From NCBI GenBank assembly GCA_001899445.1, contig MPOA01000002.1:248001-312000 (forward strand): DNA of 64,000 nucleotides, written 5' to 3'. The position numbers and the translations under genes are program-made. The stretch comes from Candidatus Desulfopertinax cowenii (lineage in GTDB: Bacteria; Bacillota; Desulfotomaculia; Desulfotomaculales; Desulforudaceae). How positions within the stretch are numbered: position 1 is the stretch's first letter; every line of letters starts with the position of its first letter. The notes beneath the pieces were generated by a model. It saw only the letters and a program-made list of their open reading frames with translations, was not told the origin of the DNA and searched no databases. Of the stretch, positions 41,080-59,406 are shown piece after piece.

Positions 41080-41246
41080 CCGTTTACTACCGCTTCTTTG
41101 CTTGCCGTGGGTTACGGGGCATGGGTCGGGGGGGCTCAAGCAGTTTCCGTAGTTCACCCGGGCGTACTTGTCCATGGTAACTGACCAGGCCAGGGTCTGT
41201 TGGAGAAGATCCGGGAATTTTCCGTGCCGGCCGTCTTCTCGCGGAC

Positions 41247-41276
41247 TTGACCGACTTGACCCAGGGTTGCTATATA
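41247..41276 (+). promoter_or_regulatory. Probable promoter for purEK
   Basis: TTGACC (41247-41252), 18 bases, then TATATA (41271-41276). A second TTGACC at 41256 and further TA-rich boxes overlap it, so the exact promoter is uncertain. No purine riboswitch was recognised in the leader. Confidence 0.45.
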
Positions 41277-41329
41277 TTATGGTATATTTACTTTATCAAG
41301 GAATTTTTTTAAGGAGGCAACAGGAGGCT

Positions 41330-41827
41330 ATGGAGCTCACAACTGATTCAGCGCCGCAAGTCGGTGTGATTATGGGTAGCCGCAGCGATTGGGAAACCAT
41401 GCGGCATGCCTCCGAGGTCTTGTCCAAACTTGGGGTGGCTCACGAGTGCCGCATAGTGTCAGCGCACCGCACCCCCGATTTCCTGTTCGAATACGCAAGC
41501 ACGGCCGAAGCCCGAGGCTTGCAGGTGATCATCGCGGGGGCCGGAGGAGCTGCTCATTTACCGGGCATGGCGGCCAGCAAGACCACCCTCCCCGTTCTGG
41601 GGGTGCCGATCCAATCTCGGGCCTTGCACGGGCTTGACTCGCTCCTTTCCATCGCCCAGATGCCGAAGGGCGTTCCGGTGGGAACCTTGGCTATTGGAGA
41701 GGCTGGCGCAGTGAATGCGGCCTTACTGGCCGTTTCTATCCTTGCGCTATCTAACCCTGCCTTGCGGGAGAAGCTCGAGTCCTATCGGCGACAAGAGACA
41801 GCCCGCGTTTTGGAGGAACAATTGTGA
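41330..41827 (+). CDS. purE: N5-carboxyaminoimidazole ribonucleotide mutase PurE
   Basis: A 165-residue class I PurE. The active-site elements are [26 protein letters not shown] and [17 protein letters not shown]. It rearranges N5-CAIR to CAIR in purine synthesis. ATG 41330 follows AAGGAGG and CAGGAGG. The next gene is purK, with overlapping stop and start. Confidence 0.96.
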
Positions 41828-42996
41828 GGATAGTTCTCCCGGGGGGCAGCATTGGGGTACTGGGTGGCGGCCAATTGGGGCGGATGCTGGCCCTCGAGGC
41901 TAGGCGAATGGGATATAGGGTAGGCGTACTAGACCCCGTGGCGAGTTGTCCGGCGGCGCAGGTGGCGGACTTTCACCTGCAGGCTCCCCTCCACGACCGC
42001 GAGGCTGCTTTGAAGCTGAGTGCCCAGGTGGACGTGGTCACCCTGGAGACCGAACTCGTACCTTTTGCGGTTCTCGCTCAGCTAGAGGCGACGACGCCGG
42101 TCCGGCCGAGCGCAAGCGTGCTGCGTACCATCCAGGACCGTCTGCTGCAGAAGGAGTTTCTCCAGGCGGCCGGTTTTCCCCAGGCACCTTTCGCGTCGAT
42201 TCACGATCCCCGCCGGGTTCAAGAGGCTGCCCAGGCGGTTGACTTTCCGGCGATTCTCAAGAGTCGGCGCGGCGGTTATGATGGAAAGGGCCAGGTGCTC
42301 GTGGCGGATTCCGGTGCCCTGGAGAGTGCCTGGCAAGCCATCGGTGGCCAGCCAGCGGTGCTGGAGACACTCATTTCTTTCAAGATGGAGATCGCGGTCA
42401 TTCTGGCCCGTGGGGTGCAGGGGGAGATACGGGTCTACCCGCTGGCTGAGAACGTGCATAAACGACGCATTCTCCACACCACCAGGGTGCCAGCCCGGGT
42501 GTCCGAGCGGACGCGCCAGGAGGCCGAACGCCTGGCCTGCGGCATTGCCGAAATCCTTGGCCACGTCGGCGTCATGGCGGTGGAAATGTTCGTTTTGGAT
42601 GACGATACCGTGCTGGTCAATGAGATCGCTCCCCGGACGCATAACAGCGGCCACTATACTTTTGGCGCTTGCGTGACTTCTCAGTTCGAGCAACACCTGC
42701 GGGCAATTTGCGGCCTTCCGTTAGGTGATCCGTCGCTGCTATCACCCGCGGTGATGGTGAACCTGCTTGGAGACCTTTGGCTTGAGGGCACCCCGCGGTG
42801 GGAATCGGTGTTGTCACGAAGAAACGCCCGCCTGCACCTCTACGGCAAAGCGGAAGCCCGGGTTGGTCGCAAGATGGGGCACGTCCTCATAGTCAACGCT
42901 GACGCCGACCGCGCCCTGCGGGAGGCGGAGGAGATTGTGGCGGCGCTTCGCGTCGAGGCAGATTCAACCTGTACGCAAGATTTGCCGCCAGGTTGA
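41824..42996 (+). CDS. purK: N5-carboxyaminoimidazole ribonucleotide synthase PurK
   Basis: A 390-residue ATP-grasp enzyme that carboxylates AIR with bicarbonate. It has [19 protein letters not shown] at the N-terminus, the ATP-grasp lysine region [17 protein letters not shown], and [17 protein letters not shown]. The start GTG 41824 overlaps the purE stop. Because PurK consumes bicarbonate, it fits an organism with dedicated bicarbonate uptake, but purEK is common. Confidence 0.95.
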
Positions 42997-43016
42997 CGGG
43001 CCGGGCAATGGCTTGA

Positions 43017-44075
43017 ATGAAAAGCGAGAGGAAAGTGAGACAAGACGCGATGGAGAGAGGGGCTCCGTGGCGTGATTTCAGGCCGCTGCTCAGAAACGAC
43101 TCTCTGGTTTCTGTTTCCCCACCTGCGCTTGCGGAGCGGCCCTGGAAAGGTTCGGCCGGACCTGGCCGCTTCAAGTTTCGCCGCCAGAAGGCCGGCCGGG
43201 TCCTGCGGAAGCCGAGCCACTATGCGCGCCACTATGAGGGGTGCACCGCTGTACTGTGCACCAAACACGGAAAGGAGGCGGCAATTGCGCCTCCCTTGAG
43301 GGCGATGCTGGGACTTGCCGTCTACGTGCCGGCAGGAATGGATACCGATATCTTGGGTACTTTTACCGGTGAAATTGAACGGGTGGGTACCCCGTTGGAG
43401 GTTGCGATCCGGAAAGCACGCATGGGGATGGAGGCTACCGGCTTATCCTTTGGCCTGGCCAGTGAGGGGAGCTTTGGTCCCGATCCCCGCGCCCCGTTTA
43501 TCCCCGTACACCACGAACTCTTGGTCTTCGTGGACGATCAACGCCAGTTGCAGGTAGTGGAGCAGGTAGTGACCAGTCGCACAAACTATGGTCACTCTAC
43601 CGCCGCTTCGCTCGAAGACCTCGCCGACTTCCTTGACCGGGCCGGATTTCCGTCCCATGCCCTGGTGGTGCGGCCAAACACCGGACCGGAAACTCAGCCG
43701 CTGTACAAAGGTCTCAGGGCTGTTGGCGCTTTGCAGGAAGCGTTGCGGGAGTGCGCTTCTGTTTCGGCTGACGGTCTGGCCCGGGTGGAGACGGACATGC
43801 GCGCCCACATGAATCCATCGCGGCTGGCGGTCCTGCGCCGGCTCGCTTTTCGTCTTGGGCATCGACTGCGTACTCCGTGTCCGTCCTGCCAAAGCCCGGG
43901 CTGGGGAGTAGTCGGCGTGATCAAGGGTCTTCCCTGCGCGGAGTGCGGGTACCCCACCGAACTCGTCCGCGAACTGGTGGAGGGCTGTCCCTGCTGTACA
44001 TTCCGCCGGAACCGGCCGCGCGCTGATGGCCGAAGGACGGCTTCGGCGGGAGACTGCCCCTACTGCAATCCGTAA
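43017..44075 (+). CDS. DUF6671-like protein with C-terminal cysteine pairs
   Basis: A 352-residue frame. From about residue 76 it matches the pattern I associate with DUF6671: AVLCTKHGKEAAIAPPL, VPAGMDTDILGTFTGEI, RKARMGMEATGLSFGLASEG, PHELLVFVDD-like HHELLVFVDD. Near the end several cysteine pairs follow (CPSC, CAEC, CPCC, CPYC), which suggests zinc ribbons. The first 75 residues are basic and not part of the family; the true start may be the in-frame ATG at 43050 or a non-standard codon nearer residue 76. It follows purK by 20 bases. Function unknown. Confidence 0.72.
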   Translation: MKSERKVRQDAMERGAPWRDFRPLLRNDSLVSVSPPALAERPWKGSAGPGRFKFRRQKAGRVLRKPSHYARHYEGCTAVLCTKHGKEAAIAPPLRAMLGLAVYVPAGMDTDILGTFTGEIERVGTPLEVAIRKARMGMEATGLSFGLASEGSFGPDPRAPFIPVHHELLVFVDDQRQLQVVEQVVTSRTNYGHSTAASLEDLADFLDRAGFPSHALVVRPNTGPETQPLYKGLRAVGALQEALRECASVSADGLARVETDMRAHMNPSRLAVLRRLAFRLGHRLRTPCPSCQSPGWGVVGVIKGLPCAECGYPTELVRELVEGCPCCTFRRNRPRADGRRTASAGDCPYCNP

Positions 44076-44402: not shown

Positions 44403-44654
44403 ATGAAATGCCCCATTTGTGATGTTAACCTGACTATGACCGAGCGGAGGGGGGTAGAAATTGATTATTGCCCCCAATGTCGTGGTGTCTGGCTGGACAG
44501 GGGGGAACTCGATAAAATTATTGAGCGTTCATTACCTCAAGGACAGTTAGAGGGACACCGCTTGCAACGCCCGGGAGGATACGGTGATTATTATAAAGAT
44601 CATAAAAAACGCAAGCGCAAATCATTCCTAGAAGAATTATTCGACTTTGATTAA
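44403..44654 (+). CDS. TFIIB-type zinc-ribbon protein
   Basis: An 83-residue protein whose first half is a zf-TFIIB domain: MKCPICDVNLTMTERRGVEI and YCPQCRGVWLDRGELDKII. Two CxxC pairs should bind one zinc. The tail is basic then acidic (DHKKRKRKSFLEELFDFD). Proteins of this family are common but functionally obscure. A GGAGG site precedes the ATG. Its own promoter is at 44184-44213. Confidence 0.9.
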   Translation: MKCPICDVNLTMTERRGVEIDYCPQCRGVWLDRGELDKIIERSLPQGQLEGHRLQRPGGYGDYYKDHKKRKRKSFLEELFDFD

Positions 44655-44985: not shown

Positions 44986-45713
44986 TCCACCTGCAAAGCG
45001 GCGCATCAGCAAGTTCCGTACCAGTCGATCCGAGCTATTTGCAGATCTTTCTTTGTTATTTTTACTCGAGTCCGCGCCCGGTTACCACAATGGCCAGGGT
45101 GCGGTTTGATCTAATGCTGGAGATATTCCCCGATCGGATGAGGATTAGCAAGGTAATCTACCAGGAAGAAGCTTTTCCAGGAAAATTCGGACTTGACCCT
45201 AACAGGTTACGGGTTTAGGCTATGGAACATTAGGTTCGTAAGTACCTTATGCGGGCGCTGGCAGGCTGGATCTAACCAGTAAAGCACCATGTGCACCCGG
45301 ATGCGGTTCCCCAGGCGGTGGTGCACCCGGCAAAGATCCAGAGAGTTCTTTTAGGGTGCAGAAGGCGCTTCCCAGCTGGAGAAGGTGCCAGCAAGTCCTA
45401 CGGTCGCGTCGTTCGGGGGGAGGGTGTCGTCCGAGGTGCGCGGCATGCATCTCTTGTCCAGTCCTCTTTGGCCTTAATCTATCTTATTCTGGTCGCTTCG
45501 GGGCTGGTCCTTATTCTCCGACCGGAGGTAGGGGCCTTACGTGAAATGGGCGATGAGATTGCAGGCTGCCTTGGTACGGGGCCCCCGTTGAGCTCACCGA
45601 TCGCCCACGAGTGATGGCCACCCGCTCTTTGGCGTCACCACAGGTTCTCTTCGGAGACGCATCCGAATTAAATAATTAGAGTCGATTGCGACGAATGGAG
45701 CGTGAGCCGTGGC

Positions 45714-46721
45714 ATGGCAGATATGTTCGAGATAGCCGTGGTCAACTTGTCGTCACCCATCGTGTTGTTTTTCGGTCTGGGTCTGCTTATCGCCCTGGCA
45801 AGGGCGAAAGTGGAGTTTCCCAGCGCCGTCAGCGATTTTATCACCATCTACCTGTTGATTGCGATCGGCTTCAAAGGCGGCGTGGCGATTGCCGAGGCCG
45901 GCCTGAATGCCGGTGTGATTTTAACCGTCGTCGGTGCCATTTTCATAGGGGCCGTTATTCCGATCTATTCCTTTTACATCCTCTGGCGAATCGGTAAAAT
46001 GAAGATCGACGATGCGGCAGCCATCGCCGGTCATTACGGCTCAATCAGCGTGGTGACCTTCTTGGCGGCCACGGCGTTCCTGGCCAGCATAGCCGTAAGT
46101 TACGAAGGTTTTGTGTACGGTTTGCCCGCCATCATGGAAGTGCCGGGCATCATCGCGGTCCTGATTTTGGTTTCGTGGGTCAAGGAGAAGAGCCGGAACG
46201 ATGCGGCTGGGGCGGCGGGTGTCTCCCTGGGCCAGGCAACCAAACGGGTGATGCTGAGCAAGAGCATTGTCCTGTTGCTCGGCGGGCTGGCGGTGGGTTA
46301 TATTGCCGGGCCGCGGGGAATGGCCAGCGTGGAGTTCTTTTACCAGGGCCTTTTCTTGGGCGTGTTAAGCCTCTTCATGTTGGAGATGGGCACTATCGCG
46401 GGCGGCAAACTAGCCGATCTGCGGAAAGCGGGGCGGTTCCTCATGTTCTTCGGCATCATGATGCCCCCCGTGAATGCCTTGTTGGGCATCGCGGTCGGGG
46501 TTTTGAGCGGCCTGAGCGTGGGAGGGACAACCTTGCTGGGAGTATTGGCTGCCAGCAGCTCCTACATCGTTGCCCCGGCGGCGATGCGGCTAGCCCTGCC
46601 AAAGGCGAGTCCGGCCCTGTACCTGGGCGCGTCGCTGGGGGTTACGCTGCCGTTTAACCTTTTGGTGGGAATTCCCATCTACTACTACTTGGCCGAATAC
46701 TTCGTGAAGATAGTCAGATGA
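45714..46721 (+). CDS. sbtA: SbtA-type sodium-dependent bicarbonate transporter
   Basis: A 335-residue protein with about ten hydrophobic helices in two inverted halves, matching the SbtA family of Na+-dependent bicarbonate transporters. Typical sequences are NLSSPIVLFFGLGLLIALAR, IYLLIAIGFKGGVAI, AGHYGSISVVTF, EVPGIIAVLI, and in the second half LFMLEMGTIAGGKLADL and ASSSYIVAPAAMRLALPKA. ATG 45714 is preferred to GTG 45702. The next gene encodes a SbtB-type PII-like protein, the known partner that gates SbtA, which supports the call. The operon continues into CO2-handling oxidoreductases. Confidence 0.92.
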   Translation: MADMFEIAVVNLSSPIVLFFGLGLLIALARAKVEFPSAVSDFITIYLLIAIGFKGGVAIAEAGLNAGVILTVVGAIFIGAVIPIYSFYILWRIGKMKIDDAAAIAGHYGSISVVTFLAATAFLASIAVSYEGFVYGLPAIMEVPGIIAVLILVSWVKEKSRNDAAGAAGVSLGQATKRVMLSKSIVLLLGGLAVGYIAGPRGMASVEFFYQGLFLGVLSLFMLEMGTIAGGKLADLRKAGRFLMFFGIMMPPVNALLGIAVGVLSGLSVGGTTLLGVLAASSSYIVAPAAMRLALPKASPALYLGASLGVTLPFNLLVGIPIYYYLAEYFVKIVR

Positions 46722-46729
46722 TTGTTGAG

Positions 46730-46760
46730 GCCGTGCCGGACCCACCGGGTCCGGCACGGC
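46730..46760 (+). promoter_or_regulatory. Perfect 14-bp stem-loop between sbtA and sbtB
   Basis: GCCGTGCCGGACCC (46730-46743) and GGGTCCGGCACGGC (46747-46760) form a perfect stem with a three-base loop, directly after the sbtA stop. No T run follows, so it is more likely an mRNA-stabilising or processing element that sets unequal expression of sbtA and the downstream genes. Confidence 0.75.
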
Positions 46761-46791
46761 AGACGGGGCTCGTTGTAGAGGGGGTGACTAG

Positions 46792-47109
46792 GTGCAGTTG
46801 TTCAACAAAAAGCGGATCAGCATCATAGTTGAGGGTACTTACCGGGATGCGGTGCTCGAACTGATTGAAAATTCGGGCGGTAGCGGGTTCACGGTTTATA
46901 CGGGCATCTACGGAAAGGGGCGACACGGAGTCAAGGAGAACCGTGGTGGATTTGACGGTTTCTCGTGTAACGTGGAGATTGTTACCATTACGAGTCCCGG
47001 GGTAGCAGACCACATCCTGCAGGAGTTGCGGCGGATGATGGAGAAGGGCATCATGTTGGTGGTGCACGTGACGGACGTACAGGTGATCAGGGACCACCAC
47101 TTCTCCTGA
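46792..47109 (+). CDS. sbtB: SbtB-type PII-like regulator of bicarbonate transport
   Basis: A 105-residue PII-fold protein (RISIIVEGTYRDAVLELIE, GFTVYTGIYGKGRHGVKENR in place of the T-loop region, IVTITSPGVADHILQELRRM, GIMLVVHVTDVQVIR). SbtB proteins bind adenine nucleotides such as cAMP or AMP and bind SbtA to modulate uptake. It lacks the canonical PII uridylylation-loop Tyr context and any C-terminal CxxxxxC redox loop found in some cyanobacterial SbtB. The start is GTG 46792. Position right after sbtA is diagnostic. Confidence 0.9.
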   Translation: MQLFNKKRISIIVEGTYRDAVLELIENSGGSGFTVYTGIYGKGRHGVKENRGGFDGFSCNVEIVTITSPGVADHILQELRRMMEKGIMLVVHVTDVQVIRDHHFS

Positions 47110-47193
47110 AGCCGGGCAGACCGGGGATGACGGTGGAAGAAAGGGTGCCCAATTTAGGGGTGTCCTCGAGGAGAAATGCGGGGAGGGATGGCG

Positions 47194-47805
47194 ATGACAG
47201 CGAGCGAGTACCGGGTGTTGCCCGGGCCGGAGGGCTACCTGCCGCCGGCGGCGGCGTGTATGGGGGTAACGCTTCCGGAGCCAGGGGAGGCCTTGGTGGA
47301 AGGCAAGATAGTTCCGGAGGAAGACGCGTTGCAAAGGATCGCGGAGAAATTGCTGGCGGCACGGAACCCAGTGTTTTTCCCAGGGCCGCTGGTTTTGTGG
47401 GCATGGAGAGAAGGAGTAGCGGAGAAGGCAAAAGCGGTGCTGGAGCTGGTAGAGGCAGCGGGGGCGCGGGTCATCCCCATGCCGGATTACCGGCCGAAGT
47501 ACCCGATGATTAACCCGGCGGTGGAGATCAACCCAAATCATCCCAACCTGACGATCTGGCACAACCGGATCGACGTGGGGGTGTTCGTAGGGGTGCATTG
47601 CCACTACGCTAACGTAGCGCTGAAGATCATTCGGGGGGGCACCGACTGTTACACCATCGCGCTGTGTGGCGAGATGGGACACGAGGATGCCATGATTACG
47701 CTGCGGAGTGTTGATACGGCAAAGCTTAGACGGTTAACGGAAGCGGTGAAAGCACTCGCGCAAGCAGGGCTCCCGCGGGCGGCGGGGGAGCACGGAAGGC
47801 GGTAG
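47194..47805 (+). CDS. CO dehydrogenase beta/acetyl-CoA synthase epsilon-family protein
   Basis: A 203-residue protein that appears to belong to the CO_dh family (archaeal CODH/ACS epsilon subunit, CdhB), a DHS-like nucleotide-binding fold. Relevant segments are RIAEKLLAARNPVFFPGPLV, RVIPMPDYRPKYPMINP, LTIWHNRIDVGVFVGVHCHYAN (in parts) and TIALCGEMGHEDAMITLR. Genes of this family also occur in bacteria next to 2-oxoacid oxidoreductases, as here, away from any CODH catalytic subunit. A role in FAD or electron transfer is possible but not shown. ATG 47194 follows GGGGAGGG. The family call is from memory of the pattern. Confidence 0.6.
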   Translation: MTASEYRVLPGPEGYLPPAAACMGVTLPEPGEALVEGKIVPEEDALQRIAEKLLAARNPVFFPGPLVLWAWREGVAEKAKAVLELVEAAGARVIPMPDYRPKYPMINPAVEINPNHPNLTIWHNRIDVGVFVGVHCHYANVALKIIRGGTDCYTIALCGEMGHEDAMITLRSVDTAKLRRLTEAVKALAQAGLPRAAGEHGRR

Positions 47806-47845
47806 GGAGTAAAGAGGGGGCGTAAATTTGGGAGGTGGTGAGGGC

Positions 47846-48988
47846 GTGGCTATCCAGCGGGTGGTGACGCCGGAGCATCTGTTTTTCGAGGCGGAGCGGG
47901 AAAAGCAGTTCATCACAGGTAGCGAGGCGGTCAGGGAAGCAATCAGGCGGGCAAATGTCGATTTGGCGATCTCCTATCCGATCACCCCGCAGTCGGAGAG
48001 CATGCACCTGGTGGGGGATATTTACGCGGAAGGGTACCTGAAGGAGTATTTTCGGGGGGAGAGCGAGTTTGCGGTAATGGCCGAGGTCGCGGGCGCTTCC
48101 ATGGGGGGCGTGCGAGTATTCACGGCCACCGGGGGACCTGGGACCTTACGAGCCTTTGAGATGTTTCCGACGTGGGCGGGGGCGCGATTGCCCATCGTCT
48201 GTACTTTTTTGACGCGGGGGGTAAATTCTCCTTTAACCATCCAGCCGGACACCATCGAGATGGCGTTTATGTTGGACACAGGGATGCTGATGTTCCACGC
48301 GGAGAACGCGCAGGACCTGTACGACATGATCCTGAAGGCGTTCGTGATCGCGGAGCAACCGGACGTCCACCTTCCGGTTGGGGTGTTTGCGGACGGGTTT
48401 TTTGTCACCCATACGCGGGAACAGGTAGCGGTGGCGCCGGCGGACCTGAAGCTACCACCCTATGACCCCTATGCGGCGCCGGTGCCGGTGATGGACATGG
48501 AAAGCGCCCCGGTGCGGCAGATGCGGGATCCCTTCGTAATGAAGAGCAACTTCATCAGCTATGCCGCCCACGCCTCCTGGCAACAGGAGATCTTGGCGGC
48601 GCAGGAGCGGGCGCGGAAGTATGTGCACAGGTACCTGGAGGGGCTGGTGGATGTGGAGCATCCGGAGGCAGCGGTGTTGGTAGTGACCTCCGGGACCATG
48701 GTGTCGCAGAGCAGGGAAGCCGTGGCCGTGGCTCGCCAGCAGGGACTGGACATTGGGCTGGTGAAGGTGAAGAGCCTGCGCCCGTTTCCGCGGGAAGAGA
48801 TCAAGACGCTGGCCCGGCAGGCCCGAACGATAATCGTGCCCGAGTACAACCGGGTGGGATGGCTGTGCCGGGAGGTCAAGGCGGTGGTGGAGGACACCAC
48901 GAAAGTGATCGGTGGTCCCCGGGTGTTCGGCGGGATGACGATGCCACCCGAGGTTGTTCTGGCCCAGATCAGGAGGTGTTGTGCGTGA
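47846..48988 (+). CDS. 2-oxoacid:ferredoxin oxidoreductase, alpha subunit (copy 1)
   Basis: A 380-residue alpha subunit with domain I (GSEAVREAIRRANVDLAISYPITPQSE, shown in parts: SYPITPQSESMHLVGDIYAE) and domain II (MVSQSREAVAVARQQGLDIG, VKVKSLRPFPREEI). TATGGPGTLRAFEMFPTWAG and THTREQVAV are conserved between the two alpha copies. Such enzymes interconvert 2-oxoacids with acyl-CoA and CO2 using ferredoxin. The sequence style is nearer the PadG/oxalate-oxidoreductase branch than classical pyruvate synthase, so the substrate is open. GTG 47846 follows GGGAGGTGGTGAGG. Its stop overlaps the beta start. Confidence 0.88.
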   Translation: MAIQRVVTPEHLFFEAEREKQFITGSEAVREAIRRANVDLAISYPITPQSESMHLVGDIYAEGYLKEYFRGESEFAVMAEVAGASMGGVRVFTATGGPGTLRAFEMFPTWAGARLPIVCTFLTRGVNSPLTIQPDTIEMAFMLDTGMLMFHAENAQDLYDMILKAFVIAEQPDVHLPVGVFADGFFVTHTREQVAVAPADLKLPPYDPYAAPVPVMDMESAPVRQMRDPFVMKSNFISYAAHASWQQEILAAQERARKYVHRYLEGLVDVEHPEAAVLVVTSGTMVSQSREAVAVARQQGLDIGLVKVKSLRPFPREEIKTLARQARTIIVPEYNRVGWLCREVKAVVEDTTKVIGGPRVFGGMTMPPEVVLAQIRRCCA

Positions 48989-49848
48989 GCGAGGGGTTGT
49001 TCAGGATCTCGCCCGGGTTTGAGGAGGTAATGCCGGCTGAGTACAAGGAGCTGGTCGCAGACGGCCCCTGCGGGAGAGAGGTAGGAGTTTCCGACCTGGG
49101 AGCGTTTAAGGAGCTGATCGAGGAGCACCCGCTGTGTGCCGGTTGTAGCGCGGCTCTGGCCCTGCGTCTGATTCTGGCCTCCTTACCCAAACCGGAAGAC
49201 ACCGTGATCGTGGGGTCAACGGGTTGTAGTTCGCTGGCCTTCACCCAGGTGGCAGTCCACAACATCCACTCCTTGTTCGGCAATCAGAATGCAGTGGCCG
49301 CAGGCCTGAAGCGGGCGCTCCGGTTACGGTTTCCGGATAAGGTGAAAGATGTGGTGGTGATTGCGGGCGACGGGGCGACCGTGGATATTGGTCTGGATAT
49401 GGTGATGCAGTCGTGGTTCCGGCGGGAGCATATTACCACCATCATGCTGGACAATGAAGTATATGCCAACACGGGGGGGCAGGAGAGCGGGATGTCCCTG
49501 CGGGGGATGGTGCTGCACATGGCCCCCTTGGGGAAAAGGTTTCCTAAGGTGGCCTTGCCGGAGATCGCCCGCGAGGCCGGCTGTGCGTACGTAGCTGCAA
49601 TTTCCCCGGCCCAACCGAAGCGGCTGGGGAGGGTGGTGCGGCGGGCCATCCTGGTGGCGCGGGAGGTCGGACCCACCTATGTGCAGATTTTCTGTCCCTG
49701 TCCAACCAACTTCAAGTTTCGGCCCGACGAATCACTCCAAAAGATCAAGCAACGCCAGAAAGAAGGGGCTTTCCAGGTGCGGGAGTACGTTTCGCCGGAG
49801 GCCCAGGCGTTTCTGGCCGAACTGGAGGGGGCGGACCATGAGGAATAG
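48985..49848 (+). CDS. 2-oxoacid:ferredoxin oxidoreductase, beta subunit (copy 1)
   Basis: A 287-residue TPP-binding subunit. The TPP motif is IAGDGATVDIGLDM with LDNEVYANTGGQ downstream. Cluster ligands are LCAGCSAAL, the Cys in GSTGCSSLAF and a Cys in FCPCPTNFKF, the usual pattern for the proximal [4Fe-4S] cluster. GTG 48985 follows AGGAGG and overlaps the alpha stop. The end overlaps gamma by 11 bases. Confidence 0.92.
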   Translation: MSEGLFRISPGFEEVMPAEYKELVADGPCGREVGVSDLGAFKELIEEHPLCAGCSAALALRLILASLPKPEDTVIVGSTGCSSLAFTQVAVHNIHSLFGNQNAVAAGLKRALRLRFPDKVKDVVVIAGDGATVDIGLDMVMQSWFRREHITTIMLDNEVYANTGGQESGMSLRGMVLHMAPLGKRFPKVALPEIAREAGCAYVAAISPAQPKRLGRVVRRAILVAREVGPTYVQIFCPCPTNFKFRPDESLQKIKQRQKEGAFQVREYVSPEAQAFLAELEGADHEE

Positions 49849-50515
49849 TAAGACGTTCATTCGCATGTCAGGTCTGGGGGGCCAGGGGGTGGTGACGGCC
49901 GCCCACATTCTGGGGATGGCCGCCGCGAAGGATGGATTGGAAAGCACGGTCAACCCCTTTTTTGGGGCGGAGAAACGGCTGGCACCGGCCGAGAGTTACG
50001 TGCGGATTGCCACGGAGAAGATCTACGAGCGGGGCGAGGTGCTGTTTCCGAACATCATCTTGATCTTTCACCCGCACGTGATCACTCTGGGGAAGTGCTA
50101 CACCATGCCGTTTTTCGCTGGTTTGCAGCCGGGGGGCATGGTCATTGTCAATACAGACCGCGCGCAGGATTTGCTGCGGGAGGACGAGCGGGCGGGACTT
50201 ATGCGCCTGGAAGCCCGGGTGTATTGTGTACCGGCCACGCGGGTGGCCGTTGAGGTGGGGGGGACGGAGCTGTCAACAAACATCGCGATGCTGGGGGGGC
50301 TCTTGGGGGTGCAGAAGCTGGTCTCCCAGGAAGCGGTTAAGGAAGCGTTGCTGGAAAGGTTTGGCGGCGGGAAGTTCGTGGCTTCTGGAACAACGGCGGC
50401 GCTGGACGACGTGCTGAAGAGCAAGTTTAACCGGCTGGCCCACCTGGTCGAGAGAAACGTGGCGGTCTTGACGGCGGCCGGCGGGTCGGTGGAGGAATAT
50501 CATCTTGGGGACTAG
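49838..50515 (+). CDS. 2-oxoacid:ferredoxin oxidoreductase, gamma subunit
   Basis: A 225-residue gamma subunit (FIRMSGLGGQGVVTAAHILG, VNPFFGAEKRLAPAESYVRI, GGMVIVNTDRAQDL, ELSTNIAMLGGLLGVQ), which contacts CoA in this enzyme family. ATG 49838 has a GGAGGGGGC site. The single gamma gene may serve both alpha-beta pairs of the cluster. Confidence 0.92.
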   Translation: MRNSKTFIRMSGLGGQGVVTAAHILGMAAAKDGLESTVNPFFGAEKRLAPAESYVRIATEKIYERGEVLFPNIILIFHPHVITLGKCYTMPFFAGLQPGGMVIVNTDRAQDLLREDERAGLMRLEARVYCVPATRVAVEVGGTELSTNIAMLGGLLGVQKLVSQEAVKEALLERFGGGKFVASGTTAALDDVLKSKFNRLAHLVERNVAVLTAAGGSVEEYHLGD

Positions 50516-50532
50516 GGGGGGCGACTCAAGCC

Positions 50533-50727
50533 ATGTATGCTGCCGCGAAAATCGAATTGGAGAAGTGTATTGGATGCAAACTATGCATCCTGTCGTGCCC
50601 GGAACCTAACGTGCTGTTGTATTTGCCAGAGACGAAGCAGGTGTCCGTAAACCAGCAGCGTTGCAAAGGCTGCGGACTTTGCGTGGTCATCTGCCCCAAG
50701 GATGCGCTGTCGGTCAGCAGCATCTGA
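50533..50727 (+). CDS. 2-oxoacid:ferredoxin oxidoreductase, delta (ferredoxin-like) subunit
   Basis: A 64-residue 2x[4Fe-4S] protein with CIGCKLCILSCPEP and CKGCGLCVVICPKDA. It carries electrons from the TPP/cluster site of beta to free ferredoxin. It begins 17 bases after the gamma stop and ends the first four-subunit set. Confidence 0.93.
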   Translation: MYAAAKIELEKCIGCKLCILSCPEPNVLLYLPETKQVSVNQQRCKGCGLCVVICPKDALSVSSI

Positions 50728-50907
50728 GGCCGCTAAGTGGAGTCGCGCCGGTCGGTCAAGCCGAGAGGACCCTTGGATCGCCCCGAATAGCTAGTTACCG
50801 GTCGGACGAGGGGTGAAGGAGTCCGGAATGCCGGAGCACCTCCTGGAACGAGAGTGCTTGAAAGCCCTAATTCTCGCGCCGAGACACAGAGGGGAATCGG
50901 AGGGGAA

Positions 50908-52083
50908 ATGACTAGACAACAACGCGAAGTCGCCCCGGAATACCTGTTTTTCGAAGCTCCCGGGAAGCAGGTTTTCATAACGGGTAGTGAAGCGGTGGCC
51001 GAAGCAGTCAAGCGGGGCAATGTAGACATGGCTATCGCCTATCCCATCACTCCGCAGAGTGAAAGTATGCACTTGATCGGAGATTTGTATGCTCAGGGCT
51101 ACCTGAAGGACTATTACCGGGCCGAGAACGAATTTGCGGTTATGGCTGCTGTGCACGGGGCCTCCCTGGGGGGCGGACGAGTTTTTACAGCCACCTCCGG
51201 CCCTGGAACCCTGCGGGCGATGGAGATGTTTCCAGTTTGGGCCGGGGCAAGACAACCGATCGTTTGTGCCTTTATGTGCCGGGGCGTTTCCCTTCCCCCT
51301 TCGATTCAACCGGAGAACATCGAAATGGCTATGCTCCTAGACACTGGCATGCTGATGTTTCACGCCGAGGATGCCCAGGACTTCTTCGACATGATCCTGA
51401 GGGCCTACGTCATCGCGGAGCAACCGGACGTTCATCTACCGGCGGGGGTTTTCGTAGACGGGTTCTTTGTCACCCACACGCGGAGTGCGGTGATGCTTCC
51501 ACCGGAGGATATTAAGCTTCCGGCCTACGATCCGCGGCGGACGCCGGTCCCGATCTTCGATATGGAGACTCCTCCGATGCGGACCATCAGGGATCCGTTG
51601 CTCAACAAGAGTAACTTTATCAGTTATCTGGCCAATGCCAGTTGGCATCAGGAGGTCATCGCCGCCGCTGAACGGGCCCGCAAGTATATTCGGCGTTACA
51701 TGGGAGGGCTTCTGGAGGTAGAAGACTCTTCGGCCAAGATCTTCTTAGCCGCCTCGGGGACCGCGGTGTCGCAGAGCCGGGAAGCAATCAGGGTCTTAAA
51801 GGACGAGGGTATTCAGGTGGGGCTGATCAAGATCAAGTCCATTAGGCCCTTTCCAGCCGAAGAGATCGCGACCGTTACGTCCCACGCTGAACTGATCGTG
51901 GTGCCCGAGTTCAATATGGGCGGATGGTTGGCCCGGGAGATCAAGGCCGCGCTGGATAACAACAGGAGGGTGGTGGGCGGTCCCAGGGTGTTCGGGGGGA
52001 TGACCATGCCGGCAGAGTTGATAGTCGACGAAGTCAAGAATGCTCTCCGGAACCGCTCTAGAGCACAACGGTCCAATTCCTAG
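50908..52083 (+). CDS. 2-oxoacid:ferredoxin oxidoreductase, alpha subunit (copy 2)
   Basis: A 391-residue paralogue of the alpha subunit at 47846. The two share long near-identical blocks (AYPITPQSESMHLIGDLYAQ, VFTATSGPGTLRAMEMFP, LLDTGMLMFHAEDAQD, GPRVFGGMTMPAEL) but differ in substrate-loop stretches such as FMCRGVSLPPSIQPENIEMA versus FLTRGVNSPLTIQPDTIEMA. ATG 50908 follows GGAGGGG. A 180-base gap separates it from the first set, so it may have its own promoter. Confidence 0.88.
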   Translation: MTRQQREVAPEYLFFEAPGKQVFITGSEAVAEAVKRGNVDMAIAYPITPQSESMHLIGDLYAQGYLKDYYRAENEFAVMAAVHGASLGGGRVFTATSGPGTLRAMEMFPVWAGARQPIVCAFMCRGVSLPPSIQPENIEMAMLLDTGMLMFHAEDAQDFFDMILRAYVIAEQPDVHLPAGVFVDGFFVTHTRSAVMLPPEDIKLPAYDPRRTPVPIFDMETPPMRTIRDPLLNKSNFISYLANASWHQEVIAAAERARKYIRRYMGGLLEVEDSSAKIFLAASGTAVSQSREAIRVLKDEGIQVGLIKIKSIRPFPAEEIATVTSHAELIVVPEFNMGGWLAREIKAALDNNRRVVGGPRVFGGMTMPAELIVDEVKNALRNRSRAQRSNS

Positions 52084-52106
52084 CTGGAATTCACAGGAGG
52101 CGGCTA

Positions 52107-52946
52107 ATGTCAACCAAGATAATCACACCCGTTGATGAATTTGCGGACTGCTTGCCCCAAGAATACAAGGAATTGGTGGCCCGCGGGCCTTACCGCGAGC
52201 CCAGGTCCGTGGAGGACCTGGGCACTTTCAAAGAGATTATCGAAGAACACCCGCACTGCGCAGGCTGTGGAGTGTCCTTGGGGATTCGCCTCTTGGCTGC
52301 GGCTCTGCCGTCCCCCGAGGATACCCTTATTGTCGGGACGCCTGGCTGTTCGTTCTTCGGCTTGGTTCAGACCGCCCTGAATTACTCAAACACGGCCTTT
52401 GGTAATCAAAACGCCGTAGCTGCCGGCCTGAAAAGAATGTTGCAAATCCGCTTTCCCCACGTGCACAAGGACGTGGTGGTAGTTGCAGGTGACGGGGGCA
52501 TCGCCGATATCGGCCTGGACCTGACGCTTCATTCCTGGTTCCGGCAGGAGAAGATTACCACCATCATGCTGGACAATGAGGTATACGCCAATACCGGGGG
52601 CCAGGAAAGCGGCATGAGCAGGCAGGGACGGGTTCTAAACATGGCGCCTCAGGGCAAACGTTTTCCCAAAATACCGGTTTTTGAAATGGCCAAGGTTTCG
52701 GGTTGCGTGTATGGCGTACGAGTGACGGTGGCCAGTCCCCGCAAAGTAGGGCGAGCAGTTAGGAACGCGATCCTCGTTGCGCGTGAATTTGGGCCTACCT
52801 ATGTCCAGATTTTTACCCCTTGTCCCACCAATATGAAGTTTTCCCCTAACCAAACCCTCAAGGTAGCCAAAGAGGCGGAAAAGGACCACTACACGTACGA
52901 GGAATTCTTGAGTACAGAGGTGGCGACGTACCTGGCCCAACTGTGA
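52107..52946 (+). CDS. 2-oxoacid:ferredoxin oxidoreductase, beta subunit (copy 2)
   Basis: A 279-residue paralogue of the beta subunit at 48985: HCAGCGVSLGIRLLA, GTPGCSFFGLVQ, VVAGDGGIADIGLDLTLHSW, MLDNEVYANTGGQESGMSRQ and TPCPTNMKFSPNQ. All cluster and TPP residues are kept. No gamma or delta gene follows; the next gene is on the opposite strand. Confidence 0.92.
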   Translation: MSTKIITPVDEFADCLPQEYKELVARGPYREPRSVEDLGTFKEIIEEHPHCAGCGVSLGIRLLAAALPSPEDTLIVGTPGCSFFGLVQTALNYSNTAFGNQNAVAAGLKRMLQIRFPHVHKDVVVVAGDGGIADIGLDLTLHSWFRQEKITTIMLDNEVYANTGGQESGMSRQGRVLNMAPQGKRFPKIPVFEMAKVSGCVYGVRVTVASPRKVGRAVRNAILVAREFGPTYVQIFTPCPTNMKFSPNQTLKVAKEAEKDHYTYEEFLSTEVATYLAQL

Positions 52947-54960: not shown

Positions 54961-57900
54961 CTATCGGAGGGCGGCGGTGATCTGGGCCATTATCTGTTCA
55001 TCCGAGAAGTTGTGCTGTTGCGTGGCGGCGGTGGGGCAGATGGCCACGCATACGCCGCACCCCTGACACAGCACTCGGTTGACTGTAGCCACGCGCCGCT
55101 GGACATCGATTTCCCGGGCTCCATACGGACAGGTATCAATACAGAGGCCGCAGCCCGAGCAAAGTTGCTCGTCAATTGAGGCGACATTGGCTATGCCCTC
55201 CAGACGATCTTTGGAAAGCAGGGTGACCGCACGGATGGCCGCCGCTCCCGCCTGGGCCACCGCCTCGCCAAGCATTTTCGGCCCGTGCGCCAGGCCACAG
55301 ACATACATGCCCTCGGACGCGAGATCCACCGGGCGCAGTTTCACGTGTGCCTCGGCCAAGAAACCGTCAGCCGTAAGCGGAACCTTGAACAACCGGGCCA
55401 GTTCCTTTCCCTCCTTCCGGGGCTCAATGGCTGCGCTCAGGGCAATTAAATCGGTGTCCAGGACCAGCTCCCGGCCCAGCACCGGGTCGGTAATCCGTAC
55501 TTGTAAACCTTTGCCGTTAAGCGTTACGACTGGCTTATTTTCGGGCTCGTACCGGATGAAGAGTACGCCTTTTTCCCGCGCCAGACGATAGTACCGTTCC
55601 ATAAAGCCATAGGCCCTGATGTCCCGGTAAAGGATAAAAACGTTGGTCGCGGGGGAGACTTCCTTGATTTTCAGGGCGTTCTTAAGCGCATGAGCGCAGC
55701 ATATACGGCTACAGTACGGGCGTTCTTCGTTTCGTGAACCCACGCACTGGATCATTACCACGGTTCCTACTTCGGAGAAACCTCCGGTGCCAAGAATCTT
55801 TTCTAATTCGGTCTGGGTCATTACGTCGGGATGAACACCGTAAAAATATTCTTTGGGACTGGTTTCCACGGCCCCAGTGGCCACGATCACCACCCCATGT
55901 TCGATCTCCTTTAGCTCTAGATCATCAACGCACGCGACGGTGGTCCGGTAGTTTCCCGCATGTCCCTCGGAATTCACCACCTCACTCCACGTCAGGATCT
56001 CGACCAAGGGATGGTTCTCCAGGCCGGTGATCAGGTCGTGCAACAAATCCTGGGGCGCTGAACCCTCCAGCGTAAAGAACAACCGCCGGAGATTGCCACC
56101 CAAACTGCCACTCTTTTCCACCAGGGTTACCGGATACCCTTGCTCGGCCAACGAAAGAGCGGCCGTCATTCCGGCAACGCCTCCCCCAACTACGAGGGCC
56201 CGGGAATTGACGCTGGAAAAGGTACCACTGACCGGTTCCAGCAAGCGGGCCTTGGCCACCGCCATCCGGATCAGGTCCCGGGCCTTGGCGTTAGCCTGTT
56301 CGGGTGTGGATTGGTGCACCCAGGACACTTGCTCCCTGATGTTGACCTGCTCGTATAATTGGGGGTTAAGCCCGGCCTCCCGCAGGCAGGACTGAAAGAG
56401 GGGTGCATGACTGCGCGGGGTACACGCGGCTACCACTACCCGGTTAAGATCAAACTCTTCTATGCGTTTCCGGATGTTTTCCAGGCTGTCCCGGGCGCAA
56501 GCAAATAGAAAAAGTTCGGTATAGACAATGTCTTTAAGTCCTTTTGCATACTCCGCCAGGGCTTCGACGTCTAAGACGCCCCCAATGTTGTGCCCGCAAC
56601 TGCACACGAACACTCCGATCCGGGGGCGCTCGCCGCGAACGTCTTTTTCCGGGGGAAATTCCTTCCGGACCGTTTCCGTTCCCCGGGCGGCCGCCAGCAG
56701 GCGCGAAGCATTGGCCGCCGCCGAACTGGCCTCGACCACCGTCTCCGGGATATCCTTGGGCGCGCACAGTACGCCGGCCGCAAAGATCCCCGAACGCGTC
56801 GTGAGACCCGGATAGAGTTCCGAGGAGCGACAGAAGCCGTATTCGTTCAGTTCGATACCCGCCGCCCGCGCCAGTACTTCCACTCCTTCCGGTTGGCACA
56901 GCCCGGGTGACAGCACCACCAGGTCGAAATCCTCCTCGTGAAAGCCTCCGTTGCCGTTCGGATAACGCAGTAACAGGTTCTTGTTTTGCTGCAACTCTTT
57001 TACCGCACCCACACTGCACCGGAGGTAGCGGATCCCATATTCCCGGCGGGCACGTTCATAATACCGTTCAAAATCCCGGCCGAAAGCCCGGAGGTCGATC
57101 AAGAAAACGGTGACCTCCAGTCCCGGTATGCGTTCCTTGGCGATCATGCCCTGCTTGGTGGCGTGCATACAGCACACCGCTGAGCAGTACTCTTGGCCCC
57201 GGGCCACGTCCCGGGAGCCTACGCACTGGATAAAGGCAATCTTACGAGGTTCTGCGCCGTCGGAAGGCCTGGTGAGTGTTCCCCCGCTGGGGCCCGATGC
57301 GCTGAGCATTCTTTCAAACTGGATACTGGTCAGCACGTTGGGGTAAATTCCGTAGCCGTATTCGCTTAAGATCCCGGGGTCAAACAACTCGTAACCGGTA
57401 CTCAGGATGATTGCGCCCACCCGCAGGGTGATCTCCTTGTCCCACATGAGGAAATTAATCGCGCCGGCGGCACAAGCCTCCTCACACTTTACGCACTCGG
57501 GGCAGTTGTCTATGTCCACGACATACCCGTGGGGAACTGACTGCGCGTAGGGGCGGTAAATGGCCTTGCGCCGACCCAACCCGACATTGAATTCATCTGC
57601 TGTTTCCATGGGACACACCGCGACGCAGTCGCCACATCCCGTGCATTTCTCGGTATCCACGTAACGGCCCCGGATCCGGACCCGGGCCCGGAAGTCGCCG
57701 GGTTCACCCTGGACCTCCTGGAGTTCAGCGCACGTCAGCAGCTGGATATTTGGGTGCCGGCTGCACTCTACCAACCGGGGAGCCAGGGTACACATGGCAC
57801 AGTCACCGGTGGGAAAAGTTTTGTCCAACTGGGCCATGCGCCCGCCGATGGCCGGCTGCTTTTCCACCAGGTAAACCTTGAAACCGGCTTCAGCCAGGTC

Positions 57901-57981
57901 GAGAGCCGACTGAATCCCGCCTACACCACCTCCGACTACCAACACCGCCCCGCTGACAGCTTGGTGTTTACTTTCCTGCAT
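54961..57981 (-). CDS. hdrA: Tandem HdrA-type FAD/iron-sulfur oxidoreductase
   Basis: A 1006-residue cytoplasmic flavoprotein related to heterodisulfide reductase subunit A. Module 1 (about 1-430): FAD motif VLVVGGGVGGIQSALDLAE, TGDCAMCTLAP, then CTGCGDCVAVCP and CPECVKCEEACAAGA clusters and CVGSRD with YCSAVCC. Module 2 (about 450-1006) is a canonical HdrA: VFVCSCGHNIGGVLDVEAL, VVAACTPRSHAPLF, a second FAD motif ALVVGGGVAGMTAALSLAE, YCSRICCAHALKNA and C-terminal CSGCGLCIDTCP and CQGCGVCVAICP. ATG 57981 has a GAGGAGG site. HdrA proteins bifurcate or pool electrons for HdrBC, hydrogenase or Qmo-like partners. The hdrB just upstream is broken, so its present partner is elsewhere. Confidence 0.9.
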   Translation of the reverse strand: MQESKHQAVSGAVLVVGGGVGGIQSALDLAEAGFKVYLVEKQPAIGGRMAQLDKTFPTGDCAMCTLAPRLVECSRHPNIQLLTCAELQEVQGEPGDFRARVRIRGRYVDTEKCTGCGDCVAVCPMETADEFNVGLGRRKAIYRPYAQSVPHGYVVDIDNCPECVKCEEACAAGAINFLMWDKEITLRVGAIILSTGYELFDPGILSEYGYGIYPNVLTSIQFERMLSASGPSGGTLTRPSDGAEPRKIAFIQCVGSRDVARGQEYCSAVCCMHATKQGMIAKERIPGLEVTVFLIDLRAFGRDFERYYERARREYGIRYLRCSVGAVKELQQNKNLLLRYPNGNGGFHEEDFDLVVLSPGLCQPEGVEVLARAAGIELNEYGFCRSSELYPGLTTRSGIFAAGVLCAPKDIPETVVEASSAAANASRLLAAARGTETVRKEFPPEKDVRGERPRIGVFVCSCGHNIGGVLDVEALAEYAKGLKDIVYTELFLFACARDSLENIRKRIEEFDLNRVVVAACTPRSHAPLFQSCLREAGLNPQLYEQVNIREQVSWVHQSTPEQANAKARDLIRMAVAKARLLEPVSGTFSSVNSRALVVGGGVAGMTAALSLAEQGYPVTLVEKSGSLGGNLRRLFFTLEGSAPQDLLHDLITGLENHPLVEILTWSEVVNSEGHAGNYRTTVACVDDLELKEIEHGVVIVATGAVETSPKEYFYGVHPDVMTQTELEKILGTGGFSEVGTVVMIQCVGSRNEERPYCSRICCAHALKNALKIKEVSPATNVFILYRDIRAYGFMERYYRLAREKGVLFIRYEPENKPVVTLNGKGLQVRITDPVLGRELVLDTDLIALSAAIEPRKEGKELARLFKVPLTADGFLAEAHVKLRPVDLASEGMYVCGLAHGPKMLGEAVAQAGAAAIRAVTLLSKDRLEGIANVASIDEQLCSGCGLCIDTCPYGAREIDVQRRVATVNRVLCQGCGVCVAICPTAATQQHNFSDEQIMAQITAALR

Positions 57982-58049
57982 GCTAAAACCTCCTCGTGGG
58001 TTCTGAACCACTCAACCGGCCAGGGACAACTTGCGAAGCAAGGACAGCG

Positions 58050-58205
58050 TTAAATCCGGCGTCTGCCCAGCCAGGAGAGGGCTTCAGGTAGGTTAAAGGC
58101 CAATCCGATCAGTTCGGGGAAATAAAAATGCGACAGACCGCCAACGCGGCCCGGCCTGCTTGCCTCCAGGTTCGCTGGCACTGTAGCCGGGCGGTAGCCA
58201 GGAAT
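58050..58205 (-). pseudogene. Remnant of hdrB (heterodisulfide reductase subunit B)
   Basis: Directly upstream of hdrA and on the same strand, one frame reads NLEASRPGRVGG, then LSHFYFPELIGLAFNLPEAL and ends RRRI-stop, which is the C-terminal block of HdrB (NLExxRPG..GLPVLYFxQLIGLALGLP). Just before it, in a shifted frame, LATARLQCQ takes the place of the family ...VTACPLCQ, so the cysteine-rich CCG motif has lost a Cys and a one-base deletion separates the parts. Nothing of the N-terminal two thirds remains. Confidence 0.6.
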
Positions 58206-58385
58206 TATGCCAGCTCTTACCCGCTCCCTTAAGAAATGCCATGGAGTATTTTGCTCTTTTTTGCGGCCCGGCGGGGCGAAATGTTTACTTTAAATAATTC
58301 GTGGTCGATTCAATGATCCCTGCTTTTTGCAAATGTTCCACAATAATTACGCGTCCACAATAGCGGAACACGATTCACAAACTGA
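58206..58385. other. AT-richer spacer upstream of the hdrB remnant
   Basis: I see no gene or clear regulatory element here. Together with the hdrB remnant it makes up the 400-base gap between the activase gene and hdrA. Confidence 0.5.
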
Positions 58386-59393
58386 TTAGGCCTGAAGCGG
58401 TGTTTCCCTCGCCTCGTGCCGGTTGGACGAGGACACGCTCAGGTTATACCACTTGCCGCAGCGGGAACCCCACCGGCTGACCAGCTCCCCGGCGATGTAA
58501 AATTCGTTCACCTCGCAGTTGTTCGGACAATCCGCGCAAGAGAAGGTACGGGGCTGGCAGGTGAACTCGGCGACATAGGCCGCGCCGCGGAAGTTGGTGG
58601 GTGTCCGCCGCCGCTCCGCGTTACGCTTGGCCAGGAGTGCGGCCCCGAAGGCACCCATCACCTGGAAATGCTCGGGGACCACGATGTCCAGGTTCAGCCG
58701 TTTCTGGAAAGCGGCGCGGATGCCAACATTGGCGGCGACGCCGCCCTGAAAGAGGACGAGGGGTTCAATTTTGCGGTTGCGGGCCACGTTGGCCAGGTAG
58801 TTTCCTACCAGCGCCAGGCAGAGCCCGGCGATGAGATCTTCTTTTTTGTAGCCCATTTGCTGCTTGTGGATCAGGTCGGACTCCGCGAATACACCGCAAC
58901 GACCGGCGATCTTGATGGGGCTCTTGGAGCGAAGGGCGTAGTCGCCGAACTGTTCGATGGGAATGCCCAGGCGTACGGCCTGGTGATCCAAAAACGAACC
59001 GGTGCCGGCCGCGCACACGGTGTTCATGTTGAATCCCACCGGCACTCCGTCCTGAAAAAAAATGATTTTGGAATCTTGTCCCCCGATATCAATGACGGTG
59101 CGGACTTCGGGCTCAAAGTGACGGGCGGCCATGGCATGGGCGGTGATCTCGTTCTTGATCATGTCCGCGCCCACCATGATCCCGGCCAGCCGGCGACCGC
59201 TGCCGGTGGTGCCCACGCCGCCGATCCGCGGTTCGCCCGTTTTGGCGTATAATTCCTGGAAGGATCTCTGGATGGCGTCTATTGGCCCGCCCTCGTTCCG
59301 CAGGTAGGACTTGTAGACCAGGTTGCTGTTTTCGTCGATCAGGGCCAGCTTGGTGGTGACGCTGCCCACGTCTATCCCCAGGTAGTAATGCAC
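58386..59393 (-). CDS. BadF/HgdC-type ATPase activase
   Basis: A 335-residue ASKHA-fold ATPase that, in its family, feeds low-potential electrons to 2-hydroxyacyl-CoA dehydratases or benzoyl-CoA reductase. It shows YLGIDVGSVTTKLALID, GVGTTGSGRRLAG, TVIDIGGQDSKII and the cluster cysteines in NTVCAAGTGSFLDHQA and KIAGRCGVFAESDLIH. A C-terminal extension carries FSCADCPNNCEVNEF, not found in minimal activases. It is 13 bases downstream of the DUF2229 gene. No dehydratase genes are near. Confidence 0.9.
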   Translation of the reverse strand: MHYYLGIDVGSVTTKLALIDENSNLVYKSYLRNEGGPIDAIQRSFQELYAKTGEPRIGGVGTTGSGRRLAGIMVGADMIKNEITAHAMAARHFEPEVRTVIDIGGQDSKIIFFQDGVPVGFNMNTVCAAGTGSFLDHQAVRLGIPIEQFGDYALRSKSPIKIAGRCGVFAESDLIHKQQMGYKKEDLIAGLCLALVGNYLANVARNRKIEPLVLFQGGVAANVGIRAAFQKRLNLDIVVPEHFQVMGAFGAALLAKRNAERRRTPTNFRGAAYVAEFTCQPRTFSCADCPNNCEVNEFYIAGELVSRWGSRCGKWYNLSVSSSNRHEARETPLQA

Positions 59394-59406
59394 AATCTGA
59401 CCCCCT

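Follow-up and report, generated by a model that had tools for sequence, protein, structure and literature searches.

A transporter of the SbtA family linked to genes for a probable five-subunit 2-oxoacid:ferredoxin oxidoreductase in an anaerobic member of the Bacillota

What connects a transporter of the Na+-dependent bicarbonate family (SbtA) and a PII-like protein (SbtB) with ferredoxin-dependent oxidoreductases in an anaerobic bacterium? The question is raised by a 64,000-nt stretch of the genome of Candidatus Desulfopertinax cowenii (contig MPOA01000002.1, positions 248,001–312,000; hereafter the window), in which sbtA and sbtB are followed by a gene for a protein resembling CdhB, the epsilon subunit of CO dehydrogenase/acetyl-CoA synthase (CODH/ACS), and by genes for 2-oxoacid:ferredoxin oxidoreductase subunits. 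An earlier note on this DNA had described the cluster as a carbon-supply module. This description fits our results, as the neighbourhood is conserved and the presence of purE–purK beside sbtA favours bicarbonate, but its two complete oxidoreductases and its CODH role for the CdhB-like protein were not upheld. We consider it fairly probable that these genes form an anaerobic unit for inorganic-carbon assimilation, in which PII-gated bicarbonate uptake would feed PurK and a reductive five-subunit oxidoreductase. Genomes (G), families (f) and loci (L) are designated as labelled in the analysis.

Domain profiles and reading frames showed that sbtA, sbtB, the CdhB-like gene, porA1, porB1, porG, porD, porA2 and porB2, all of them as named before, are intact and lie on the forward strand. 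The spacers between sbtA, sbtB, the CdhB-like gene and porA1 are 70, 66 and 22 nt long, respectively; porB1 and porG overlap, porD comes next, and a gap of 180 nt lies ahead of porA2–porB2, 3' of which a Na+/Ca2+ exchanger gene is found on the opposite strand. The run had been thought to be headed by sbtA; its common direction was confirmed, but its start was not, since purE, purK and a DUF6671 gene (41168–44075) lie further 5' on the same strand, as does a small zinc-ribbon gene separated from sbtA by 1,047 bp. Similarly, only the first of the two proposed oxidoreductases is complete (alpha, beta, gamma and ferredoxin), the second being an alpha/beta pair with no gamma or ferredoxin gene after porB2.

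The CdhB-like protein and its oxidoreductase

In structure comparison, the CdhB-like protein matched the CODH/ACS epsilon subunit best (Z 13.1, 2.6 A over 132 residues) and shares its fold; FwdB, a formylmethanofuran dehydrogenase subunit, and middle domains from thiamine pyrophosphate (TPP) enzymes ranked next. However, the role in CO dehydrogenase previously attributed to it is contradicted by its genomic partner, which is PorA and not CdhA for every member of its clade with a readable neighbourhood, and by its likeness to the fifth-subunit type known from the pyruvate and 2-oxoglutarate:ferredoxin oxidoreductases (POR, or PFOR, and OGOR) of Aquificaceae. The CdhB-like gene adjoins PorA at 35/35 tabulated loci. 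Within this phylum, PF02552 proteins are encoded beside PorA (33 distinct sequences), with an FdhA–NuoE–NuoF formate dehydrogenase (15) or beside the CODH subunit CdhA (3), and the CdhA-adjacent proteins form a separate set, 23–27% identical to the window protein. The PF02552 match and the epsilon fold could also be expected of a protein working with a CODH encoded elsewhere in the genome, its adjacency to por genes being incidental, but the constancy of the PorA partner, the separateness of the CdhA-adjacent set and the f25 genomes, which have a CdhB-like protein and no CdhC/ACS domain, make this very improbable.

The residues His129, Cys142, Cys164 and His169 were invariant across all three PF02552 contexts (alignment A1), and the set Cys142/Cys164/His169 was common to the bacterial copies but not kept in the archaeal CdhB sequences aligned. 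A broader proposal, which we advance as a whole and only tentatively, is that CdhB-fold proteins could be a subunit shared by CODH, formate dehydrogenase and five-subunit POR, that is, by ferredoxin- or NAD-linked CO2 converters, with the invariant Cys/His set either acting at the active site on CO2/bicarbonate, a metal or a flavin or docking the enzymes together, and that together with SbtAB they would form an anaerobic carbon-concentrating system without RubisCO or carboxysome. The CdhB paralogue beside formate dehydrogenase (FdhA and/or NuoE–NuoF) was seen at 15 loci in two gene orders, and at these loci a TGA, placed where selenocysteine is usually encoded, apparently divides FdhA. Viral contigs and plasmids yielded no relatives of the CdhB-like protein. 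A CdhB-like/PorA1 fusion in G004 and G005 was considered and rejected, the long frames being out-of-frame extensions and the CdhB-like gene being intact.

According to a study of Aquifex aeolicus, anabolic five-subunit PFOR and OGOR contain a CODH/ACS epsilon-like subunit whose function was not known, and such enzymes have been characterised biochemically only in Aquificaceae (PMC10052474); clusters from Leptospirillum and Nitrospira have likewise been annotated as belonging to this type. The window has this composition, a single cluster encoding the alpha, beta and gamma subunits together with a ferredoxin-like and a CODH-epsilon-like one, and, from the sequences, its core most probably encodes a five-subunit enzyme of the POR/OGOR type. 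Both PorA1 and PorA2 keep the TPP Glu, the Thr of YPITP and the carboxylate Arg, and both PorB proteins have CAGC and GDGx4I, the latter followed by G rather than by the D of the GDGx4ID motif. Oxalate oxidoreductase (OOR) was rejected as an identity, because both PorA proteins have Thr at the position of the OOR-specific Arg31. The two PorA proteins belong to two old paralogous clades (SH-aLRT 100 for the PorA2 clade), and the duplication therefore precedes most families carrying both. The retention of both copies suggests two substrates. Three POR-alpha peptides from N. marina match PorA2 in order, a faint signal given that the source complex is unclear and that an own-genome protein (L121) also matches two of them. 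The f25 genomes have a second, divergent CdhB-like/porABGD set (L081:8956-12750 and L083:5972-9752), and at L081 a gene recognised by eye as encoding a GntR-type regulator lies directly upstream of it.

The transporter, its neighbours and their conservation

The association of sbtA with the CdhB-like/por core is conserved well above chance, as judged from the gene order in five relatives, from two family members without either half and from its recurrence in other families. The window genome (1.78 Mb, 6 contigs) comes from a group of anaerobes with kinship to a deep-subsurface lineage, in a family that includes a named Desulforudis metagenome-assembled genome. The whole order is kept in four members (G001, G003, G005 and G007) and, with an SbtA only 32% identical that is encoded directly beside the CdhB-like gene and no sbtB, in G004, while G002 (an incomplete genome) and G006 lack both SbtA and the cluster-type PorA. 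The core was found in 10 Bacillota families (f1, f2, f7, f17, f25, f40, f53, f59, f71 and f73), and sbtA adjoins it in five of them (f1, f7, f53, f71 and f73). In a sample of 398 genomes of this phylum, SbtA was present in 12/18 genomes with the core and in 6/380 others (Fisher p = 1e-14, without correction for kinship). In a separate count by genome, the two lay close together in 13 of 24 genomes having both, against about 0.8% expected from genome size by a rough estimate. The neighbourhood survey named by the earlier note therefore revealed an sbtA–sbtB/por neighbourhood conserved in relatives. In G097 the same run extends into NuoE–NuoF–FdhA–CdhB, a formate dehydrogenase set interrupted by an in-frame TGA, which from our own reading of the sequences we take to be the usual selenocysteine site; in G516, fdhA follows the por genes. 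The window genome carries an ACS-type CdhC domain.

The purE–purK pair adjoins sbtA in f1, f7, f148, f125 and f53, with a purK–sbtA distance of 3–47 nt in G461, G411, G414 and G392; at loci without sbtA, purK lies 85–214 nt from the CdhB-like gene (G093, G438 and G517). PurK is bicarbonate- and ATP-dependent, and its pairing with sbtA therefore provides independent support for bicarbonate as the cargo of SbtA. It is also what would be expected if SbtA supplied nothing but housekeeping carboxylations (by PurK and by the carbamoyl-phosphate and biotin carboxylases), with the por genes as neighbours engaged in oxidative or amino-acid metabolism, with no dedicated CO2 supply to POR. In favour of this alternative, purE–purK–sbtA forms the tightest pair, G392 and G118 have purEK–sbtA without CdhB-like/por genes, and the core occurs without SbtA in f25, a family lacking the CdhC/ACS domain. 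However, sbtA joins the por genes without purEK in G375 and G242, G004 retains SbtA directly beside the CdhB-like gene, and CODH-epsilon-like subunits are documented in anabolic POR/OGOR (PMC10052474), so we consider it rather unlikely.

The DUF6671 gene lies beside or inside the CdhB-like/por genes in 8 families (f1, f2, f7, f17, f25, f53, f71 and f73), its position within the cluster varying. At one locus (L133:6553-6699, G461), purE–purK–sbtA–sbtB precedes a CdhB-like stump of just the 49 N-terminal residues, beyond which the genes are unrelated; this suggests a loss of por genes or a misassembly. G093 has two CdhB-like/por clusters (L068 and L095), one behind purE–purK and the other behind sbtA–sbtB, as if a longer run had been divided.

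SbtA had been regarded as known mainly from cyanobacteria, a view that does not accord with its presence in 18/398 sampled genomes of this phylum and in the Caulobacter and Thermus controls; PF05982 transporters of non-cyanobacterial autotrophs have been reviewed (PMC10880623), and microbes of serpentinite-hosted settings have also been noted to have SbtA (PMC11176372). The window SbtA is a member of the Sbt_1 family, with bicarbonate as its predicted, unproven substrate. The TM4/TM9 crossover with the Na+ site is kept, the motif columns 110–112 and 320–322 being gap-free in the alignment. Four HCO3− contacts were proposed in Synechocystis SbtA from docking plus mutants (PMC8352866), of which S114 and S324 are kept in the window clade, whereas Y140 is replaced by P and S327 by V. 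These replacements, and the distance from the characterised cyanobacterial protein in the tree (branch 2.4), are consistent with the import of another anion, such as an oxo-acid that would then be oxidised by the oxidoreductases. However, the Tyr and the Ser/Thr of the bicarbonate site are present in the linked SbtAs of G004 and G375, the purK and formate dehydrogenase neighbours share only inorganic carbon with POR, and the PII partner is CPII-like; import of another anion thus appears distinctly improbable. In the SbtA tree, the linked transporters fell into three well-supported clades (those of the window, G375 and G004), so the same neighbourhood took in different SbtA lineages, in one case (G004) in the same slot. 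A scan of genome contigs with the window SbtA yielded only two close relatives.

The PII family membership of SbtB and its tandem arrangement with the transporter gene were confirmed at the family and sequence level. The closest solved structures were the CPII-type 5d4n and 5d4l (PDB match E 5.6e-8); 5d4n, whose full-length match reached only 36 bits, is annotated as a P-II protein, which we take to be the carboxysome-associated CPII, a PII-like protein of Thiomonas. CPII binds bicarbonate and adenine nucleotides. Gating of the transporter by adenylate state, as proposed earlier, is plausible, but none of the 16 aligned SbtB copies has the C-terminal CGPxGC, the redox R-loop known from cyanobacterial SbtB; as this loop occurs in only some SbtB proteins, it is not a defining feature of the family. 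In the sbtA–sbtB spacer lies a stem-loop that is kept in G001 and not in other genera, and that may possibly limit read-through from sbtA. It was rejected as a terminator, since it has no T run, was not listed by the terminator scan and is not conserved outside the genus.

Table 1. Positions of the genes and other features in the window, and of the formate dehydrogenase (FDH)-linked CdhB loci in other genomes
Feature	Position	Strand	Evidence and remarks
purE, N5-CAIR mutase	41168..41827	+	Pfam AIRC 214 bits; true start probably downstream, AIRC domain from residue 64
purK, N5-carboxyaminoimidazole ribonucleotide synthase	41824..42996	+	Pfam ATP-grasp and PurK_C
DUF6671 protein	43017..44075	+	Pfam DUF6671 165 bits; C-terminal CxxC pairs
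Small zinc-ribbon (TFIIB-type) protein	44403..44654	+	Pfam Zn_ribbon_TFIIB; conserved upstream of sbtA in the family (L063-L067)
sbtA, Na+-dependent bicarbonate transporter family	45702..46721	+	Sbt_1 (PF05982) 361 bits
Stem-loop between sbtA and sbtB	46730..46760	+	Perfect 14-bp GC-rich stem, no T run; fold z = -3.3
sbtB, PII-like protein	46792..47109	+	P-II (PF00543) 62 bits
CdhB-like protein, proposed fifth (delta-type) subunit	47176..47805, likely start 47188	+	CO_dh (PF02552) 138 bits
porA1, alpha subunit of 2-oxoacid:ferredoxin oxidoreductase	47828..48988	+	POR_N 203 bits
porB1, beta (TPP) subunit	48985..49848	+	TPP_enzyme_C; CX2C and GDGx4I
porG, gamma subunit	49838..50515	+	POR 119 bits; TIGR02175 above cut-off
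porD, 64-aa ferredoxin, two 4Fe-4S motifs	50533..50727	+	Fer4 domains
porA2, second alpha subunit, old paralogue of porA1	50908..52083	+	POR_N 198 bits
porB2, second beta subunit	52107..52946	+	TPP_enzyme_C
FDH-linked CdhB loci	L092:13636-19338, L134, L135, L170-L175, L068, L079, L080, L082, L084, L087

Elsewhere in the window (54961–61563, reverse strand), a gene for an HdrA-like FAD/Fe-S protein of 1016 aa has as neighbours two separate genes, for a BcrAD/BadFG ATPase and for a DUF2229/HGD-D protein; the latter two are a 2-hydroxyacyl-CoA dehydratase activator in two pieces.

Proposed function and comparison with known systems

In the inorganic-carbon assimilation unit that we favour, SbtA would import HCO3− with Na+, and SbtB, structurally nearest to CPII, would gate it according to the adenine-nucleotide state. 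PurK would consume HCO3− directly, and HCO3− would be dehydrated to CO2 for use by a ferredoxin-driven five-subunit 2-oxoacid synthase, consisting of PorA1B1 and/or PorA2B2 with shared PorG, PorD and CdhB-like subunit and working in the carboxylating direction with reduced ferredoxin. The reaction would be acetyl-CoA + CO2 to pyruvate, probably with a second oxo-acid, such as 2-oxoglutarate, formed via the second alpha/beta pair, and the host would be a bacterium of the Wood-Ljungdahl type living in water that is poor in CO2 and often alkaline. Given the ACS-type CdhC domain and the two further Vor/Kor-type oxidoreductases of the genome, the por enzyme may be the dedicated carboxylating one. 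The purK, formate dehydrogenase and POR neighbours have no substrate in common other than inorganic carbon.

Several observations weigh against it. One transcript for the whole predicted unit is uncertain, as 1 kb lies ahead of sbtA and a stem-loop separates it from sbtB. The substrate of formate dehydrogenase, CODH and POR is CO2 and not HCO3−, and no carbonic anhydrase gene was seen in the cluster. Two further oxidoreductases of the Vor/Kor type are encoded in the genome, so the window enzyme need not be the pyruvate synthase. Two of the four bicarbonate contacts are replaced in the window SbtA, and we know of no assayed SbtA relative this close. Finally, the core occurs without SbtA in several families, in one of which (f25) the CdhC/ACS domain is also missing.

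The coupling of transporter and oxidoreductase appears to be undescribed. In the open-access literature, we found no description of SbtA linked to a five-subunit oxidoreductase or to purEK, nor of CdhB-like proteins with formate dehydrogenase; the five-subunit oxidoreductase type itself was already known. If our proposal is correct, PII-controlled bicarbonate uptake would be genetically tied to a reductive carboxylase in RubisCO-free CO2-fixing anaerobes, including relatives of Candidatus Desulforudis, which would answer how cells of the Wood-Ljungdahl type manage scarce CO2. In addition, the CODH-epsilon-like subunit of POR, described as intriguing in its function (PMC10052474), would gain a role open to testing, since its family also accompanies formate dehydrogenase.

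The window system resembles cyanobacterial SbtA–SbtB in its tandem of transporter and PII-like genes, in its Sbt_1 family membership and in its two contact serines and TM4/TM9 crossover motifs, but its SbtA lies in a deeply separate clade with the Y140 and S327 replacements, its SbtB lacks the CGPxGC R-loop, and its neighbourhood shows no RubisCO or carboxysome gene. Likewise, although Thiomonas CPII is the nearest solved structure, the window sbtB gene is linked to an oxidoreductase of anaerobic type instead of to carboxysomes. The CdhB-like protein shares the PF02552 domain and fold with the archaeal-type CODH/ACS epsilon subunit, but it pairs with PorA instead of CdhA and has the low identity mentioned above to the CODH-linked copies of the same phylum. 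The por/vor locus of Pyrococcus furiosus has two alpha/beta pairs and a single gamma gene, as in the window, but each of its pairs comes with its own ferredoxin subunit gene, and the locus has no CODH-epsilon-like subunit or transporter. The closest likeness in composition is to PorDABGE and ForDABGE of Hydrogenobacter and Aquifex, in which the five subunit types are also encoded together and which are tied to CO2 fixation (PMC10052474, PMC2607301, PMC8115632). However, the window host is an anaerobic member of the Bacillota of the Wood-Ljungdahl rather than the reductive tricarboxylic acid (TCA) cycle type, its two alpha/beta pairs have a single gamma, a single ferredoxin and a single CdhB-like gene between them, and the set is joined to sbtAB, purEK and DUF6671.

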